From: Gramella sp. Hel_I_59
Lineage (GTDB): Bacteria > Bacteroidota > Bacteroidia > Flavobacteriales > Flavobacteriaceae
NCBI RefSeq assembly: GCF_006714895.1
Contig: NZ_VFME01000001.1
Location: 2,294,001 to 2,358,000 of the forward strand
Length of the DNA stretch: 64,000 bases
Direction of reading: 5' to 3'
Below are positions 1,227-57,193 of this stretch, piece by piece (within the stretch, counting starts at the first letter, position 1; every line of letters begins with the position of its first letter). The notes beneath the pieces were generated by a model that made no database searches, was not told the origin of the DNA, and saw only the letters and a list, made by a program, of their open reading frames with translations. The translations under genes were made by a program, and so were the position numbers.

Positions 1227-1392
1227 AACGCGCAACAACAACGGTTAATCGCCAATAGACGGCAGCTTTAGTAAGAAAATAATTAACTTGACAAACAAAT
1301 CAGTACTAAGCCGACAAATCCGCGTCCCTTACTCGGCCAACTGGCGATAACCGTATTCCAAGGTTAAATCCAAGCCTTTTGTGCTAATTTTT

Positions 1393-2379
1393 TCAGGCTG
1401 CAAATCTTTGTAATTCCACATAAGGCGTTCCTCTCTTCACCACTGCAAACACTCTGGATAACAGTTTATTGCGGACATTGTTTAGCGCAATCATCTTTAA
1501 CTTACCTTCCTCCCGCTTTTTCTTATAATATTGCCGTAATTCACTGTCATATTGAATGGCTGTACAGGCCGCCATGCTAAGCAGGCTCTTCATTTGCCGA
1601 TCTCCCATCGGGTGGCATTTTCGCTTTTTGTGAATACTGCTTCCCGAACTATGACCAAAGGGAGCCGTCCCACAATAACTGGAGAATTGGCGCCAGCTAT
1701 TAAAGCGTTCAAAATTATTGGTGTGATAAAGCAACTGGGCGCCTACAACTAAACCAACACCTTTTAAAGAAGTGATCAACTTATAATTTTGCGATAATGC
1801 CTCAGAAGTCTTTATCAGTGATTTTAGTTGCTTCTCTATTTTATTTATTTGAGAAGTCAGGTGAGTAATAGAGCTTACAAGCGTTTTACAACAGGTATCT
1901 GTAGAACTGCTGCTGAGCAACTTTTTCAGCTCTGAAAGGGTATTCTTCAATCCCGTACGACTACGAACCAGCTGATCACGCAAAGCCAGCAACCTGCCTA
2001 CTTCTAATAGTTCATTATCTTTCAGCTCACTCGGTGAAAGTTCCTCACGGTGAAGCCAGCCATACCTGGCGATCATCATGGCATCTACCACGTCATTCTT
2101 CTCTCTGATCACTCCGGAAGAACGTTTGATTACTACAGGATTTTCCTGTACATATACCTGCTTCTTTGAAGATAAATACAACGCTAACTTCAAGGAATAA
2201 TGACCGGTATTCTCAAAACAGAAAAACACTTTTTGTTCCTTACCGTTAGCCCATTGCAACAAGGCTTTATAACCCTTCACATCATTACTGAACTCCCGAT
2301 GGGAACTACGATTGTAAGCATAGGCATCTAACTTGTTTTTTGAAACATCAATTCCGATTACTTCTTGGTAATTTTTCAT
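1393..2379 (-). CDS. IS110-family DEDD/serine transposase, copy 1 (328 aa)
   Basis: The recombinase makes the IS circle and inserts it at a site chosen by a bridge RNA. The N-terminal RuvC-like (DEDD_Tnp_IS110) domain shows the four acidic residues: D11 in GIDVSK, E56 in FEN, and D96 and D99 in NDVVDA. The middle, residues 140-195, is a helical coiled-coil. The C-terminal Transposase_20 domain has YCGTAPFGHSSGSS with the presumed catalytic Ser at about 245. Length is typical for the family. The protein is identical to copies 2, 4 and 5; copies 3 and 6 have Ser instead of Thr at residue 203. Confidence 0.95.
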   Translation of the reverse strand: MKNYQEVIGIDVSKNKLDAYAYNRSSHREFSNDVKGYKALLQWANGKEQKVFFCFENTGHYSLKLALYLSSKKQVYVQENPVVIKRSSGVIREKNDVVDAMMIARYGWLHREELSPSELKDNELLEVGRLLALRDQLVRSRTGLKNTLSELKKLLSSSSTDTCCKTLVSSITHLTSQINKIEKQLKSLIKTSEALSQNYKLITSLKGVGLVVGAQLLYHTNNFERFNSWRQFSSYCGTAPFGHSSGSSIHKKRKCHPMGDRQMKSLLSMAACTAIQYDSELRQYYKKKREEGKLKMIALNNVRNKLLSRVFAVVKRGTPYVELQRFAA

Positions 2380-2397
2380 ATTTTTAAAAAATTATTA

Positions 2398-2560
2398 TTT
2401 GAAGGGCGCATTAACTAACTCCTTTAACGGGTCCATAATAAGACCTGGTATTCCAAATGGTTCTTGCTGCCCGTATGAAGAATGGAGGACTCTTACGGCT
2501 ATTGGATCTGTAATCTCGAGACCGTTTTAGTTCTCCTCCTTCTTCATCTCAAAGGTATAT
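2398..2560 (-). ncRNA. Putative bridge RNA of IS copy 1, programmed for attC
   Basis: Read on the minus strand, a 12-bp stem (GAAGAAGGAGGA, + strand 2534-2545, with TCCTCCATTCTTC, 2477-2489) closes a loop. The loop holds AACGGTCTCG (complement of 2517-2526) and ATAGCCGT (complement of 2495-2502). The first is complementary to the right half of the attC target, CGAGACCGTT. The second has the same sense as the left half, ATARCCG. A second loop further on, with inner hairpin GGTC/GACC, holds TTGGAATAC (complement of 2448-2456) and TAAAGGAG (complement of 2419-2426), matching the two IS ends. This is the guide layout known for IS110 bridge RNAs. RNA ends are estimates. Confidence 0.75.
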
Positions 2561-2615
2561 TTATTAATAAGCGAAGTAAAGGAGACCGTTGTATTGCATT
2601 TTTAATTAAAATAAT

Positions 2616-4944: not shown

Positions 4945-5104
4945 AGCCAACAACGGTTAATCGCCAATAGCCGGCACAGTTAGAAAGAAAATAATTAACT
5001 TGATCAACAAACCAATACTAAGCCGACAAATCCGCGTCCCTTACTCCGCCAACTGGCGATAACCGTATTCCAAGGTTAAATCCAAGCCTTTTGTGCTAAT
5101 TTTT

Positions 5105-6091
5105 TCAGGCTGCAAATCTTTGTAATTCCACATAAGGCGTTCCTCTCTTCACCACTGCAAACACTCTGGATAACAGTTTATTGCGGACATTGTTTAGCGC
5201 AATCATCTTTAACTTACCTTCCTCCCGCTTTTTCTTATAATATTGCCGTAATTCACTGTCATATTGAATGGCTGTACAGGCCGCCATGCTAAGCAGGCTC
5301 TTCATTTGCCGATCTCCCATCGGGTGGCATTTTCGCTTTTTGTGAATACTGCTTCCCGAACTATGACCAAAGGGAGCCGTCCCACAATAACTGGAGAATT
5401 GGCGCCAGCTATTAAAGCGTTCAAAATTATTGGTGTGATAAAGCAACTGGGCGCCTACAACTAAACCAACACCTTTTAAAGAAGTGATCAACTTATAATT
5501 TTGCGATAATGCCTCAGAAGTCTTTATCAGTGATTTTAGTTGCTTCTCTATTTTATTTATTTGAGAAGTCAGGTGAGTAATAGAGCTTACAAGCGTTTTA
5601 CAACAGGTATCTGTAGAACTGCTGCTGAGCAACTTTTTCAGCTCTGAAAGGGTATTCTTCAATCCCGTACGACTACGAACCAGCTGATCACGCAAAGCCA
5701 GCAACCTGCCTACTTCTAATAGTTCATTATCTTTCAGCTCACTCGGTGAAAGTTCCTCACGGTGAAGCCAGCCATACCTGGCGATCATCATGGCATCTAC
5801 CACGTCATTCTTCTCTCTGATCACTCCGGAAGAACGTTTGATTACTACAGGATTTTCCTGTACATATACCTGCTTCTTTGAAGATAAATACAACGCTAAC
5901 TTCAAGGAATAATGACCGGTATTCTCAAAACAGAAAAACACTTTTTGTTCCTTACCGTTAGCCCATTGCAACAAGGCTTTATAACCCTTCACATCATTAC
6001 TGAACTCCCGATGGGAACTACGATTGTAAGCATAGGCATCTAACTTGTTTTTTGAAACATCAATTCCGATTACTTCTTGGTAATTTTTCAT
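5105..6091 (-). CDS. IS110-family transposase, copy 2 (328 aa)
   Basis: Protein identical to copy 1, with D11, E56, D96, D99 and the SG motif near residue 245 all intact. It should be functional. Confidence 0.95.
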   Translation of the reverse strand: MKNYQEVIGIDVSKNKLDAYAYNRSSHREFSNDVKGYKALLQWANGKEQKVFFCFENTGHYSLKLALYLSSKKQVYVQENPVVIKRSSGVIREKNDVVDAMMIARYGWLHREELSPSELKDNELLEVGRLLALRDQLVRSRTGLKNTLSELKKLLSSSSTDTCCKTLVSSITHLTSQINKIEKQLKSLIKTSEALSQNYKLITSLKGVGLVVGAQLLYHTNNFERFNSWRQFSSYCGTAPFGHSSGSSIHKKRKCHPMGDRQMKSLLSMAACTAIQYDSELRQYYKKKREEGKLKMIALNNVRNKLLSRVFAVVKRGTPYVELQRFAA

Positions 6092-6109
6092 ATTTTTAAA
6101 AAATTATTA

Positions 6110-6272
6110 TTTGAAGGGCGCATTAACTAACTCCTTTAACGGGTCCATAATAAGACCTGGTATTCCAAATGGTTCTTGCTGCCCGTATGAAGAATGGAGG
6201 ACTCTTACGGCTATTGGATCTGTAATCTCGAGACCGTTTTAGTTCTCCTCCTTCTTCATCTCAAAGGTATAT
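6110..6272 (-). ncRNA. Putative bridge RNA of IS copy 2
   Basis: Same sequence as in copy 1, including the closing stem and all four guide segments. Confidence 0.7.
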
Positions 6273-6321
6273 TTATTAATAAGCGAAGTAAAGGAGACCG
6301 TTGCCCACAAGTTTTCACATA

Positions 6322-12272: not shown

Positions 12273-12405
12273 TGCCAACAACGGTTAATCGCCAATAGAC
12301 GGCAGCGTTAGAAAGAAAATAATTATCTTGACCAACAAACCAATACTAAGCCGACAAACCCGAGTCCCTTACTCCGCCAACTGGCGATAACCGAGACCGT
12401 TGGCA
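12273..12405 (+). repeat. attC site 11 (type A)
   Basis: R'' TGCCAAC is the perfect complement of the cassette start GTTGGCA at 11536. R' GTTGGCA. Confidence 0.9.
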
Positions 12406-30406: not shown

Positions 30407-30573
30407 TGCCAGCAGCCAACAACGGCTCATCGCAAATAACGGGTATTACCGAAAATGTGTAATTTTAGAAACCAGGAAAGAAAACAAATAAACCGACAAC
30501 TCCGCGTCCCAACTCCCGCAACTTACGATAGCCGTATTCCAAGGTTAAATCCAAGCCTTTTGTGCTAATTTTT

Positions 30574-31560
30574 TCAGGCTGCAAATCTTTGTAATTCCAC
30601 ATAAGGCGTTCCTCTCTTCACCACTGCAAACACTCTGGATAACAGTTTATTGCGGACATTGTTTAGCGCAATCATCTTTAACTTACCTTCCTCCCGCTTT
30701 TTCTTATAATATTGCCGTAATTCACTGTCATATTGAATGGCTGTACAGGCCGCCATGCTAAGCAGGCTCTTCATTTGCCGATCTCCCATCGGGTGGCATT
30801 TTCGCTTTTTGTGAATACTGCTTCCCGAACTATGACCAAAGGGAGCCGTCCCACAATAACTGGAGAATTGGCGCCAGCTATTAAAGCGTTCAAAATTATT
30901 GGTGTGATAAAGCAACTGGGCGCCTACAACTAAACCAACACCTTTTAAAGAACTGATCAACTTATAATTTTGCGATAATGCCTCAGAAGTCTTTATCAGT
31001 GATTTTAGTTGCTTCTCTATTTTATTTATTTGAGAAGTCAGGTGAGTAATAGAGCTTACAAGCGTTTTACAACAGGTATCTGTAGAACTGCTGCTGAGCA
31101 ACTTTTTCAGCTCTGAAAGGGTATTCTTCAATCCCGTACGACTACGAACCAGCTGATCACGCAAAGCCAGCAACCTGCCTACTTCTAATAGTTCATTATC
31201 TTTCAGCTCACTCGGTGAAAGTTCCTCACGGTGAAGCCAGCCATACCTGGCGATCATCATGGCATCTACCACGTCATTCTTCTCTCTGATCACTCCGGAA
31301 GAACGTTTGATTACTACAGGATTTTCCTGTACATATACCTGCTTCTTTGAAGATAAATACAACGCTAACTTCAAGGAATAATGACCGGTATTCTCAAAAC
31401 AGAAAAACACTTTTTGTTCCTTACCGTTAGCCCATTGCAACAAGGCTTTATAACCCTTCACATCATTACTGAACTCCCGATGGGAACTACGATTGTAAGC
31501 ATAGGCATCTAACTTGTTTTTTGAAACATCAATTCCGATTACTTCTTGGTAATTTTTCAT
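30574..31560 (-). CDS. IS110-family transposase, copy 3 (328 aa)
   Basis: As copy 1, but KLISSLKG instead of KLITSLKG (T203S). All catalytic residues intact. Confidence 0.95.
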   Translation of the reverse strand: MKNYQEVIGIDVSKNKLDAYAYNRSSHREFSNDVKGYKALLQWANGKEQKVFFCFENTGHYSLKLALYLSSKKQVYVQENPVVIKRSSGVIREKNDVVDAMMIARYGWLHREELSPSELKDNELLEVGRLLALRDQLVRSRTGLKNTLSELKKLLSSSSTDTCCKTLVSSITHLTSQINKIEKQLKSLIKTSEALSQNYKLISSLKGVGLVVGAQLLYHTNNFERFNSWRQFSSYCGTAPFGHSSGSSIHKKRKCHPMGDRQMKSLLSMAACTAIQYDSELRQYYKKKREEGKLKMIALNNVRNKLLSRVFAVVKRGTPYVELQRFAA

Positions 31561-31578
31561 ATTTTTAAAAAATTATTA

Positions 31579-31741
31579 TTTGAAGGGCGCATTAACTAAC
31601 TCCTTTAACGGGTCCATAATAAGACCTGGTATTCCAAATGGTTCTTGCTGCCCGTATGAAGAATGGAGGACTCTTACGGCTATTGGATCTGTAATCTCGA
31701 GACCGTTTTAGTTCTCCTCCTTCTTCATCTCAAAGGTATAT
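31579..31741 (-). ncRNA. Putative bridge RNA of IS copy 3
   Basis: Same stem and guide segments as in copy 1. Confidence 0.7.
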
Positions 31742-31788
31742 TTATTAATAAGCGAAGTAAAGGAGACCGTTGGTTGCAATACCTCACT

Positions 31789-41798: not shown

Positions 41799-41932
41799 GC
41801 GGCACCGTTAGTAAGAAAATAATTAACTTGACCAACGAACCAATACTAAGCCGACAAATCCGCGTCCCTTACTCCGCCAACTGGCGATAACCGTATTCCA
41901 AGGTTAAATCCAAGCCTTTTGTGCTAATTTTT

Positions 41933-42919
41933 TCAGGCTGCAAATCTTTGTAATTCCACATAAGGCGTTCCTCTCTTCACCACTGCAAACACTCTGGATA
42001 ACAGTTTATTGCGGACATTGTTTAGCGCAATCATCTTTAACTTACCTTCCTCCCGCTTTTTCTTATAATATTGCCGTAATTCACTGTCATATTGAATGGC
42101 TGTACAGGCCGCCATGCTAAGCAGGCTCTTCATTTGCCGATCTCCCATCGGGTGGCATTTTCGCTTTTTGTGAATACTGCTTCCCGAACTATGACCAAAG
42201 GGAGCCGTCCCACAATAACTGGAGAATTGGCGCCAGCTATTAAAGCGTTCAAAATTATTGGTGTGATAAAGCAACTGGGCGCCTACAACTAAACCAACAC
42301 CTTTTAAAGAAGTGATCAACTTATAATTTTGCGATAATGCCTCAGAAGTCTTTATCAGTGATTTTAGTTGCTTCTCTATTTTATTTATTTGAGAAGTCAG
42401 GTGAGTAATAGAGCTTACAAGCGTTTTACAACAGGTATCTGTAGAACTGCTGCTGAGCAACTTTTTCAGCTCTGAAAGGGTATTCTTCAATCCCGTACGA
42501 CTACGAACCAGCTGATCACGCAAAGCCAGCAACCTGCCTACTTCTAATAGTTCATTATCTTTCAGCTCACTCGGTGAAAGTTCCTCACGGTGAAGCCAGC
42601 CATACCTGGCGATCATCATGGCATCTACCACGTCATTCTTCTCTCTGATCACTCCGGAAGAACGTTTGATTACTACAGGATTTTCCTGTACATATACCTG
42701 CTTCTTTGAAGATAAATACAACGCTAACTTCAAGGAATAATGACCGGTATTCTCAAAACAGAAAAACACTTTTTGTTCCTTACCGTTAGCCCATTGCAAC
42801 AAGGCTTTATAACCCTTCACATCATTACTGAACTCCCGATGGGAACTACGATTGTAAGCATAGGCATCTAACTTGTTTTTTGAAACATCAATTCCGATTA
42901 CTTCTTGGTAATTTTTCAT
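41933..42919 (-). CDS. IS110-family transposase, copy 4 (328 aa)
   Basis: Protein identical to copy 1; catalytic residues intact. Confidence 0.95.
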   Translation of the reverse strand: MKNYQEVIGIDVSKNKLDAYAYNRSSHREFSNDVKGYKALLQWANGKEQKVFFCFENTGHYSLKLALYLSSKKQVYVQENPVVIKRSSGVIREKNDVVDAMMIARYGWLHREELSPSELKDNELLEVGRLLALRDQLVRSRTGLKNTLSELKKLLSSSSTDTCCKTLVSSITHLTSQINKIEKQLKSLIKTSEALSQNYKLITSLKGVGLVVGAQLLYHTNNFERFNSWRQFSSYCGTAPFGHSSGSSIHKKRKCHPMGDRQMKSLLSMAACTAIQYDSELRQYYKKKREEGKLKMIALNNVRNKLLSRVFAVVKRGTPYVELQRFAA

Positions 42920-42937
42920 ATTTTTAAAAAATTATTA

Positions 42938-43100
42938 TTTGAAGGGCGCATTAACTAACTCCTTTAACGGGTCCATAATAAGACCTGGTATTCCAAATGG
43001 TTCTTGCTGCCCGTATGAAGAATGGAGGACTCTTACGGCTATTGGATCTGTAATCTCGAGACCGTTTTAGTTCTCCTCCTTCTTCATCTCAAAGGTATAT
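42938..43100 (-). ncRNA. Putative bridge RNA of IS copy 4
   Basis: Same stem and guide segments as in copy 1. Confidence 0.7.
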
Positions 43101-43148
43101 TTATTAATAAGCGAAGTAAAGGAGACCGTTGGCTAGCATATTAATACT

Positions 43149-48888: not shown

Positions 48889-49056
48889 AAAACTGTGGCT
48901 AACAACGGTTAATCGCCAATAAGCGGCAGCGTTAGTAAGAAAATAATTAACTTGACCAACAAACCAATACTAAGCCGACAAAGCCGCGTCACCTACTCCG
49001 CCAACTGGCGATAACCGTATTCCAAGGTTAAATCCAAGCCTTTTGTGCTAATTTTT

Positions 49057-50043
49057 TCAGGCTGCAAATCTTTGTAATTCCACATAAGGCGTTCCTCTCT
49101 TCACCACTGCAAACACTCTGGATAACAGTTTATTGCGGACATTGTTTAGCGCAATCATCTTTAACTTACCTTCCTCCCGCTTTTTCTTATAATATTGCCG
49201 TAATTCACTGTCATATTGAATGGCTGTACAGGCCGCCATGCTAAGCAGGCTCTTCATTTGCCGATCTCCCATCGGGTGGCATTTTCGCTTTTTGTGAATA
49301 CTGCTTCCCGAACTATGACCAAAGGGAGCCGTCCCACAATAACTGGAGAATTGGCGCCAGCTATTAAAGCGTTCAAAATTATTGGTGTGATAAAGCAACT
49401 GGGCGCCTACAACTAAACCAACACCTTTTAAAGAAGTGATCAACTTATAATTTTGCGATAATGCCTCAGAAGTCTTTATCAGTGATTTTAGTTGCTTCTC
49501 TATTTTATTTATTTGAGAAGTCAGGTGAGTAATAGAGCTTACAAGCGTTTTACAACAGGTATCTGTAGAACTGCTGCTGAGCAACTTTTTCAGCTCTGAA
49601 AGGGTATTCTTCAATCCCGTACGACTACGAACCAGCTGATCACGCAAAGCCAGCAACCTGCCTACTTCTAATAGTTCATTATCTTTCAGCTCACTCGGTG
49701 AAAGTTCCTCACGGTGAAGCCAGCCATACCTGGCGATCATCATGGCATCTACCACGTCATTCTTCTCTCTGATCACTCCGGAAGAACGTTTGATTACTAC
49801 AGGATTTTCCTGTACATATACCTGCTTCTTTGAAGATAAATACAACGCTAACTTCAAGGAATAATGACCGGTATTCTCAAAACAGAAAAACACTTTTTGT
49901 TCCTTACCGTTAGCCCATTGCAACAAGGCTTTATAACCCTTCACATCATTACTGAACTCCCGATGGGAACTACGATTGTAAGCATAGGCATCTAACTTGT
50001 TTTTTGAAACATCAATTCCGATTACTTCTTGGTAATTTTTCAT
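49057..50043 (-). CDS. IS110-family transposase, copy 5 (328 aa)
   Basis: Protein identical to copy 1; catalytic residues intact. Confidence 0.95.
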   Translation of the reverse strand: MKNYQEVIGIDVSKNKLDAYAYNRSSHREFSNDVKGYKALLQWANGKEQKVFFCFENTGHYSLKLALYLSSKKQVYVQENPVVIKRSSGVIREKNDVVDAMMIARYGWLHREELSPSELKDNELLEVGRLLALRDQLVRSRTGLKNTLSELKKLLSSSSTDTCCKTLVSSITHLTSQINKIEKQLKSLIKTSEALSQNYKLITSLKGVGLVVGAQLLYHTNNFERFNSWRQFSSYCGTAPFGHSSGSSIHKKRKCHPMGDRQMKSLLSMAACTAIQYDSELRQYYKKKREEGKLKMIALNNVRNKLLSRVFAVVKRGTPYVELQRFAA

Positions 50044-50061
50044 ATTTTTAAAAAATTATTA

Positions 50062-50224
50062 TTTGAAGGGCGCATTAACTAACTCCTTTAACGGGTCCAT
50101 AATAAGACCTGGTATTCCAAATGGTTCTTGCTGCCCGTATGAAGAATGGAGGACTCTTACGGCTATTGGATCTGTAATCTCGAGACCGTTTTAGTTCTCC
50201 TCCTTCTTCATCTCAAAGGTATAT
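50062..50224 (-). ncRNA. Putative bridge RNA of IS copy 5
   Basis: Same stem and guide segments as in copy 1. Confidence 0.7.
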
Positions 50225-50282
50225 TTATTAATAAGCGAAGTAAAGGAGACCGTTGTGCACAATTTAAAAAGCAAGATTTTTG

Positions 50283-55601: not shown

Positions 55602-55915
55602 AAGACATTTACTTAGGTAATTAGATGGCTTTCATGTAATAATAGAAGAATATAGGCTGTTAAATTAAAAAATATAAGCCTTAAATAAAACAAAGTTCTT
55701 AGATAATTAAGCTTTAGTGATTAGTTAAAATCATAATTATACTATATGAAACTGGCAACAACAACGGTTAATCGCCAATAAGCGGCACCGTTAGAAAGAA
55801 AATAATTAACTTGACCAACAAAAACAAACTAAGCCGACAAATCCGAGTCCCTTACTCCGCCAACTGGCGATAACCGTATTCCAAGGTTAAATCCAAGCCT
55901 TTTGTGCTAATTTTT

Positions 55916-56902
55916 TCAGGCTGCAAATCTTTGTAATTCCACATAAGGCGTTCCTCTCTTCACCACTGCAAACACTCTGGATAACAGTTTATTGCGGACA
56001 TTGTTTAGCGCAATCATCTTTAACTTACCTTCCTCCCGCTTTTTCTTATAATATTGCCGTAATTCACTGTCATATTGAATGGCTGTACAGGCCGCCATGC
56101 TAAGCAGGCTCTTCATTTGCCGATCTCCCATCGGGTGGCATTTTCGCTTTTTGTGAATACTGCTTCCCGAACTATGACCAAAGGGAGCCGTCCCACAATA
56201 ACTGGAGAATTGGCGCCAGCTATTAAAGCGTTCAAAATTATTGGTGTGATAAAGCAACTGGGCGCCTACAACTAAACCAACACCTTTTAAAGAACTGATC
56301 AACTTATAATTTTGCGATAATGCCTCAGAAGTCTTTATCAGTGATTTTAGTTGCTTCTCTATTTTATTTATTTGAGAAGTCAGGTGAGTAATAGAGCTTA
56401 CAAGCGTTTTACAACAGGTATCTGTAGAACTGCTGCTGAGCAACTTTTTCAGCTCTGAAAGGGTATTCTTCAATCCCGTACGACTACGAACCAGCTGATC
56501 ACGCAAAGCCAGCAACCTGCCTACTTCTAATAGTTCATTATCTTTCAGCTCACTCGGTGAAAGTTCCTCACGGTGAAGCCAGCCATACCTGGCGATCATC
56601 ATGGCATCTACCACGTCATTCTTCTCTCTGATCACTCCGGAAGAACGTTTGATTACTACAGGATTTTCCTGTACATATACCTGCTTCTTTGAAGATAAAT
56701 ACAACGCTAACTTCAAGGAATAATGACCGGTATTCTCAAAACAGAAAAACACTTTTTGTTCCTTACCGTTAGCCCATTGCAACAAGGCTTTATAACCCTT
56801 CACATCATTACTGAACTCCCGATGGGAACTACGATTGTAAGCATAGGCATCTAACTTGTTTTTTGAAACATCAATTCCGATTACTTCTTGGTAATTTTTC
56901 AT
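55916..56902 (-). CDS. IS110-family transposase, copy 6 (328 aa)
   Basis: Identical to copy 3 (Ser at 203); catalytic residues intact. Confidence 0.95.
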   Translation of the reverse strand: MKNYQEVIGIDVSKNKLDAYAYNRSSHREFSNDVKGYKALLQWANGKEQKVFFCFENTGHYSLKLALYLSSKKQVYVQENPVVIKRSSGVIREKNDVVDAMMIARYGWLHREELSPSELKDNELLEVGRLLALRDQLVRSRTGLKNTLSELKKLLSSSSTDTCCKTLVSSITHLTSQINKIEKQLKSLIKTSEALSQNYKLISSLKGVGLVVGAQLLYHTNNFERFNSWRQFSSYCGTAPFGHSSGSSIHKKRKCHPMGDRQMKSLLSMAACTAIQYDSELRQYYKKKREEGKLKMIALNNVRNKLLSRVFAVVKRGTPYVELQRFAA

Positions 56903-56920
56903 ATTTTTAAAAAATTATTA

Positions 56921-57083
56921 TTTGAAGGGCGCATTAACTAACTCCTTTAACGGGTCCATAATAAGACCTGGTATTCCAAATGGTTCTTGCTGCCCGTATG
57001 AAGAATGGAGGACTCTTACGGCTATTGGATCTGTAATCTCGAGACCGTTTTAGTTCTCCTCCTTCTTCATCTCAAAGGTATAT
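56921..57083 (-). ncRNA. Putative bridge RNA of IS copy 6
   Basis: Same stem and guide segments as in copy 1. Confidence 0.7.
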
Positions 57084-57193
57084 TTATTAATAAGCGAAGT
57101 AAAGGAGACCGTTGTGCGTCATTTTGAAAAAAATCGTGTTTTGTAACAAAATGCAAGTTAAATCGTCATTGAAGAGAACCGAAAAAATGAAAA

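Follow-up and report, generated by a model that had tools for sequence, protein, structure and literature searches.

The insertion sequence that occurs six times in the window, the whole 64,000-nt stretch of the Gramella sp. Hel_I_59 chromosome analysed here, appears from its sequence to be a marine Flavobacteriaceae element carrying a guide RNA programmed to cassette recombination sites. We consider it highly probable (roughly 90%) that every copy represents a complete IS110-group element, with a predicted bridge RNA encoded in its upstream non-coding end and guiding insertion to attC.

The 1,229-bp element is present in 13 near-identical genomic copies, eight identical across the element and the remaining five differing by one to four substitutions. 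All 13 lie on one strand, inside 2,243,816-2,379,103 of the 3.44-Mb chromosome, within a ~190-kb integron-type cassette array and in one orientation, each inside an attC-like site, with the R' box on one side and the L' box on the other. A preliminary description of this locus would have taken insertions elsewhere in the genome, at sites unrelated to the guides, as evidence against such programming; 13/13 copies are in the array. The transposase (Table 1) scores 84.3 bits against DEDD_Tnp_IS110 (cut-off 29), 71 bits against Transposase_20 (cut-off 21.3) and 187.7 bits against NCBIfam NF033542 (cut-off 140), and the only PDB sequences it matches at E <= 0.01 are IS621 and ISCro4. Its residues D11, E56, D96, D99 and S245 are invariant among 12 aligned transposase rows and stand, in an alignment read by eye, opposite the IS621 residues named in the available text of PMC11208158. 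The non-coding region (NCR) upstream of the gene spans about 200 bp from the element end to the ATG, and the 70-bp ends share no inverted word longer than 5 bp in exact match and thus no long subterminal inverted repeat. Judged by its domains, catalytic residues and upstream NCR, the element is a member of the IS110 group.

Table 1. Features of the element and its target in the window (window coordinates; RNA features refer to copy 1).
Feature	Position	Strand	Basis or remark
IS110-group element copy 1, 1,229 bp, CTTTACTTCG...CCTTGGAATAC in element orientation	1353..2581	-	Boundaries from 13 copies compared with intact attC-like sites
IS110 transposase, 328 aa, DEDD and Tnp domains, the element's one gene	1393..2379	-	PF01548, PF02371, NF033542
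Predicted bridge RNA	2393..2558	-	Covariance-model match 143.6 bits (sequence in training set), fold z -3.65, compensatory changes
Stem (2534-2545 with 2477-2489) and target-binding loop	2477..2545	-	
Left target guide (LTG) AACGGTCTC: R' AAC, G, spacer GTCT, C	2518..2526	-	
Right target guide (RTG) ATAGCCGTA; GTA matches donor TAC end	2494..2502	-	Weak statistically
Left donor guide (LDG) TTGGAATACC, matches RE end	2447..2456	-	
Right donor guide (RDG) TAAAGGAG, pairs LE plus target bases CTC	2419..2426	-	
R' side of attC-like site broken by copy 1: G-AGAC-C-GTT (x, spacer, conserved base, R' start)	2582..2590	+	
L' side of attC-like site broken by copy 1: ACTGGCGATAACC	1340..1352	+	
attC-like target sequence with spacer GTCT: AACGGTCTCGGTTATCG			
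Copy 2	5065..6293	-	Copy search
Copy 3; sole one of 13 in a class-B, GATAGCC-type site	30534..31762	-	
Copy 4	41893..43121	-	
Copy 5	49017..50245	-	
Copy 6	55876..57104	-	

The array holds 146 intact and 13 interrupted attC-like sites, 159 altogether. The intact sites, at 2,191,213-2,380,627, were counted with a pattern allowing at most three substitutions (127 are exact); a first, loose count of 223 sites contained spurious matches and was replaced by this stricter one. In 89/134 cassettes the bases after GTT at the cassette start are the reverse complement of the cassette's own R'' box at 5/5 positions, and the mean match is 4.28 against 1.75 in shuffles (maximum 2.11 in 2,000), a score lowered because the loose start list held some spurious sites. 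By this cassette-start/R'' signature the array is integron-type. At its upstream end lies a 385-aa, XerA-like tyrosine recombinase (L018:405-1562), which scores 228.7 against the XerA/integron-integrase model NF040815, above 220. Against the IntI model TIGR02249 it scores 195.3, below 265, and leaves profile positions 181-238 unmatched, which we take to be the place of the integron-specific insert of IntI. The nearby recombinase is not a canonical IntI, and 'attC' therefore denotes here an integron-type cassette site with such a recombinase nearby.

Two attC classes alternate in the window, one with ACTGGCGATAACC (mostly AG/GG spacers) and one with ACTTGCGATAACC (mostly TA spacers). At window positions 12385, 23541, 41088 and 50043 identical cassette starts stand alongside different attC spacer classes. 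The cassette start that follows copy 5 recurs after 41088 beside an intact site, so that the same start is found with and without the element. Recurring starts of this kind can be read as a sign of cassette duplication or shuffling.

Such plasticity, with the same cassette starts at several places, could favour the idea that the copies arose through duplication or shuffling of integron cassettes rather than by guided insertion. This is extremely improbable, given that the 13 copies have 13 distinct flanks on each side and that identical flanking cassettes are not seen around them. The copies also break the attC-like site internally and in one orientation relative to it, and the clade of related attC-located elements is scattered over other genomes too, with, for example, nine copies over genome G346. 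The 13 different sites are therefore taken to reflect separate insertions.

Comparison of intact and interrupted sites defines the insertion point. Written in the orientation of the element, an intact site has the form (R') ..AAC-G-s1s2s3s4-x-G..(L'), and an interrupted one reads AACG-s1s2s3s4-x, then CTTTAC ... TTGGAATAC, then G..; with the element taken as CTTTAC..GGAATAC, insertion neither duplicates nor removes any base. Boundaries that would place a duplicated core, CT or CG, at each end were abandoned, as the NN bases are present in all listed intact sites; they are also contradicted by x, which varies among one element's copies on the left only. The idea that the extra NN of attC is a scar left by excision was likewise given up because intact sites carry NN in class-specific forms.

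The preliminary description placed a bridge RNA at 2398-2560, and these bounds are about right: the covariance model, trained on the attC-clade alignment with the window sequence included, matches 2393-2558 and finds the same RNA in 13/13 own copies. Rfam at gathering scores gave no match within the window. Folding gives -47.5 kcal/mol for 2396-2572 (z = -3.65), with 0/200 shuffles equally stable. The 12-bp stem said to enclose the target segments is present and does enclose both, reading GAAGAAGGAGGA / TCCTCC-A-TTCTTC in RNA sense, with 12 pairs and one bulged base. Ahead of it, at 2550-2557, is the TAnnTTTG word TACCTTTG, a putative Bacteroidota promoter motif.

A two-loop structure, drawn manually with alignment and fold as guides, was scored on 30 relatives, in which 94.8% of cells are paired and 55 cells are compensatory, against 14.7 in shuffles. 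Sliding by 1-3 columns lowers pairing to 37-48%, a control that favours the drawn structure because this was drawn from alignment and fold. One of the five structure measures points the other way, further pair types numbering 17, fewer than in every shuffle (21.5), and one inner target-loop helix pair breaks in 17/30 rows. RNAalifold alone yields 24 pairs, six of them changed on both sides. With two internal loops, each holding guides for opposite strands, the modelled structure has the features of a predicted bridge RNA, of which RTG and RDG are the weaker guides.

As a control for the guide matches, the NCR (2380-2560) was dinucleotide-shuffled 2,000 times. LTG, AACGGTCTC, is the complement of the site's GAGACCGTT, and its 10-nt match was equalled in 0/2,000 shuffles. 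In the second loop, segments described as matching the two IS ends were found, TTGGAATACC with a 10-nt match (6/2,000) and TAAAGGAG with an 8-nt match (127/2,000 shuffles as long). RTG matches the GATAGCC-type site over 9 nt (28/2,000); against the commoner GATAACC-type site it matches 5 contiguous nt (1,904/2,000), which is at chance level, the match being short because of one G.T wobble that RTG needs at most sites in the host. Of the two attC-side guides proposed earlier, the left one stands, and the right one is weakly supported as a target determinant. In the mechanism that we propose, the transposase-RNA complex would pair through its left guide with the R'/spacer side of attC and through its right guide with the L' side, inserting the circular element directionally between the R' and L' boxes. 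The left guide ends at the constant AAC and skips the cassette-specific R' bases, and one RNA could therefore address all attC of a spacer class.

Site choice inside the host array follows the guide. Among the 159 attC-like sites, the 13 that are occupied have a spacer of the guide's class, 12 exactly and one nearly: 12/13 insertions are in the AG class (CT in element sense, as encoded by the guide) and 1/13 in AA, while these classes make up 53/146 and 7/146 of the intact sites, respectively. The probability of at least 12/13 insertions in the AG class is 9.8e-5, or 1.7e-4 when restricted to the copies' stretch (102 intact sites). With at most one mismatch allowed, the 14-bp target is matched 138 times in the genome on the strand of the array and 3 times on the opposite strand (location in the array was read for the first places listed); read backwards as a control, it is matched 3 and 7 times.

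Guide and target also change together across the clade. The pair test used 59 loci, 16 from genome searches (including 3/13 own copies) and 43 of another 80, of which 57 were readable, the L106 guide and the L107 left flank being missed by the patterns. Over the G and spacer, guide equals target exactly in 31/37 distinct (species, guide, target) pairs, against a mean of 10.7 and a maximum of 21/37 in 20,000 shuffles, rows within genera not being independent and some genomes possibly present twice. The guides GTCT, TGTT, TTGT, GTTT and AGTT each occur with their own target spacer. Five of the six inexact pairs (L013, L034, L066, L087 and L119) differ by one spacer base each, those of L034, L066 and L087 being compatible with U.G pairing; the sixth, L108, is also out of register.

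For a tree, the 59 loci were reduced to 52 proteins by removing two of the host's own copies together with five proteins of fewer than 290 aa, and then to 31, one per species label; the guide of L106 was read off the alignment manually, and the target count excludes L107. This tree requires at least seven guide changes and at least eight target changes, and related elements would be tracking attC drift through single-base changes where the guide reads the spacer. In genome G168 the guide is TGTT and both insertions are at TGTT, and the 40 kb around these two copies hold 14 intact sites (one pattern, counted by hand), none with TGTT. Genome G346 holds two clade elements with different guides (L064-L067; L033, L057, L060, L062, L063); copies with guide TGTT are at TGTT sites in 5/5 cases, and those with guide TTGT at TTGT in 3/4, L066 being at CTGT.

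On the right side, RTG and its target (RT) agree at 160/228 letters against 149.3 when shuffled (91/20,000 shuffles as high), or 171 against 159.0 with wobble allowed (35/20,000). By eye, the right flanks of L066, L084, L091 and L106 do not resemble the L' side of attC, and may reflect off-target insertion or later rearrangement.

Could the matching spacer bases belong to the element's end, the 'guide' matching only the element itself? CTC or TTT does stand beside the element end in 54/68 left junctions read. The same bases are found at that position in intact sites, however, and they vary among copies of one element (L013; L066; G346, where x is C or T), leaving this explanation with an almost negligible probability.

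The same RNA extends beyond the attC clade. Given 20 relatives outside it, the covariance model locates the RNA in 16, all among the 18 with 37-42% identity and immediately 5' of the transposase; no match was found in L143 (38%), L144 (37%), or L146 and L169 (about 32%). L128 has an extra weak match on the other strand, and in Salegentibacter sp. oa5 (L136:2726-2981) a long model match coincides with a tandem duplication in the bridge-RNA region, about 110 bp by eye. Guide and left flank are both readable in 8/16 distant relatives. In six of these eight, 8-9 of 9 guide letters equal the left flank in the same register, two of the six having the same guide and target; in the other two the guide does not match the left flank. 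Taken together, the eight agree at 58/72 letters against 36.6 when shuffled (3/20,000 as high). The six matching flanks are GACTTCCGC (in two), ACCTCTGTC, GACGCGAGC, CGCGCCAGC and AGCGCTAGC, the last with one mismatch, and are without the AACG of attC. With relatives at ~40% identity carrying other guides at non-attC flanks, attC use thus looks like a property of the clade above about 55% identity.

A second IS110-type lineage, at about 32% identity (L169-L172, genome G113), is located at the R''-L'', opposite side of attC-like sites. Its left flank is ATTATACACG or ATTATAAACG in 3/4 copies examined, and its upstream region has AGTATACACGG. The two ends of attC may thus each be the target of a different IS110-type lineage.

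These comparisons bear on a further alternative, namely that the transposase itself reads the folded attC hairpin, through structure or protein contacts, and that the similarity in the NCR is incidental. Nearly all readable left flanks of the clade keep the same AACG position, as such readout would have it, and potentially folded targets (attC, REP) are described for relatives in the available text of PMC11187229. We nevertheless regard it as very improbable, as the choice among sites tracks the four spacer bases lying between R' and L', with which the guide co-varies, and as distant relatives having the same RNA with other guides occupy unrelated sequences. RNA-guided insertion is the reading that we retain: co-variation, spacer selectivity, confinement to the array and compensatory structural changes together support the programming to attC first suggested in the preliminary description.

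The core dinucleotides depart from the known pattern. In IS621, as far as the text available to us goes, positions 8-9 of the nine-base register form the core (PMC11208160); both ends have CT there, and once strands have been exchanged RTG and RDG pair with the incoming partner (PMC11208158). The elements studied here have AC as donor core and TC or TT as target core, and the identical donor and target core dinucleotides of the IS621 type were not found. Junctions were read in 69 copies, the left in 68 and the right in 61. Left junctions are TTT in 28, CTC in 26, GTT in 5, TTC in 4, CTT in 4 and TAC in one (L108), giving a TT or TC core in 67/68; right junctions are TAC in 60/61 and AAT in 1/61. 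The left core is thus target-type and the right donor-type nearly throughout, a pattern that strand bias or a flush cut would produce. In the window's subclade, RTG has GTA (donor TAC) and RDG has GAG (target CTC), following a post-exchange logic. The notion that RDG invariably specifies the target core was rejected, the RDG of the Lutibacter/Gillisia/Gelidibacter subclade having T (donor-type) there. A plausible, still tentative reading is that the clade recombines at non-identical cores, with an RNA as if written for the post-exchange (handshake) state and with the outcome of one strand apparently kept every time. If so, unmatched cores would reveal a strand bias in the completion of IS110 recombination.

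An IS1111-attC group is reportedly the subject of Tetu and Holmes 2008 and of Post and Hall 2009. RNA-guided attC targeting has been published for the IS1111-group elements ISKpn4, ISPst6 and ISPa25 (seekRNA, available text of PMC11187229), and guide-RNA targeting of attC is hence not new in principle. The present element resembles that group in RNA-guided insertion at one attC end. It differs in its upstream NCR; the downstream NCR, 11-13 bp subterminal inverted repeats and reverse guide order that the same text gives for IS1111 set that group apart, and neither such an NCR nor such repeats were found here. ISEc21, an IS110-type element with a seekRNA, is similar in its upstream NCR and programmable target, and is not called attC-targeting in the part of PMC11187229 available. 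Like IS621 and ISCro4 (the latter by PDB entry name alone), the element combines a DEDD and serine-type Tnp transposase with a two-loop RNA from the upstream end, as far as described in the available parts of PMC11208160 and PMC11208158. In the same sources, IS621 shares with it a nine-base left target guide in the same register, a left donor guide that has the sense of the RE end, and an RTG and RDG that, once strands are exchanged, can pair with bases of the partner. Unlike IS621, with CT at both ends, it has attC as its target and cores of AC against TC/TT. Among the matches listed in the open-licence literature, as far as its available text goes, no IS110-group (non-IS1111) element is described as attC-targeting. 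Within that scope, attC use by the IS110 group, clade-long guide re-tuning and unmatched cores are new as far as shown.

The clade offers a natural, many-species record of a bridge RNA following a moving target, with guide and spacer changing together. Elements with unmatched cores could ease the constraint that the core imposes on bridge-RNA tools, and could show the fate of the strands during the reaction. The guide would read the part of attC that is kept by cassette recombination along with the drifting spacer, which appears to explain how the element lives inside cassette arrays. By this record, RNA guidance to attC seems to occur in the IS110 group as it does in IS1111, and bridge RNAs are tied to the evolution of cassette arrays in Bacteroidota.
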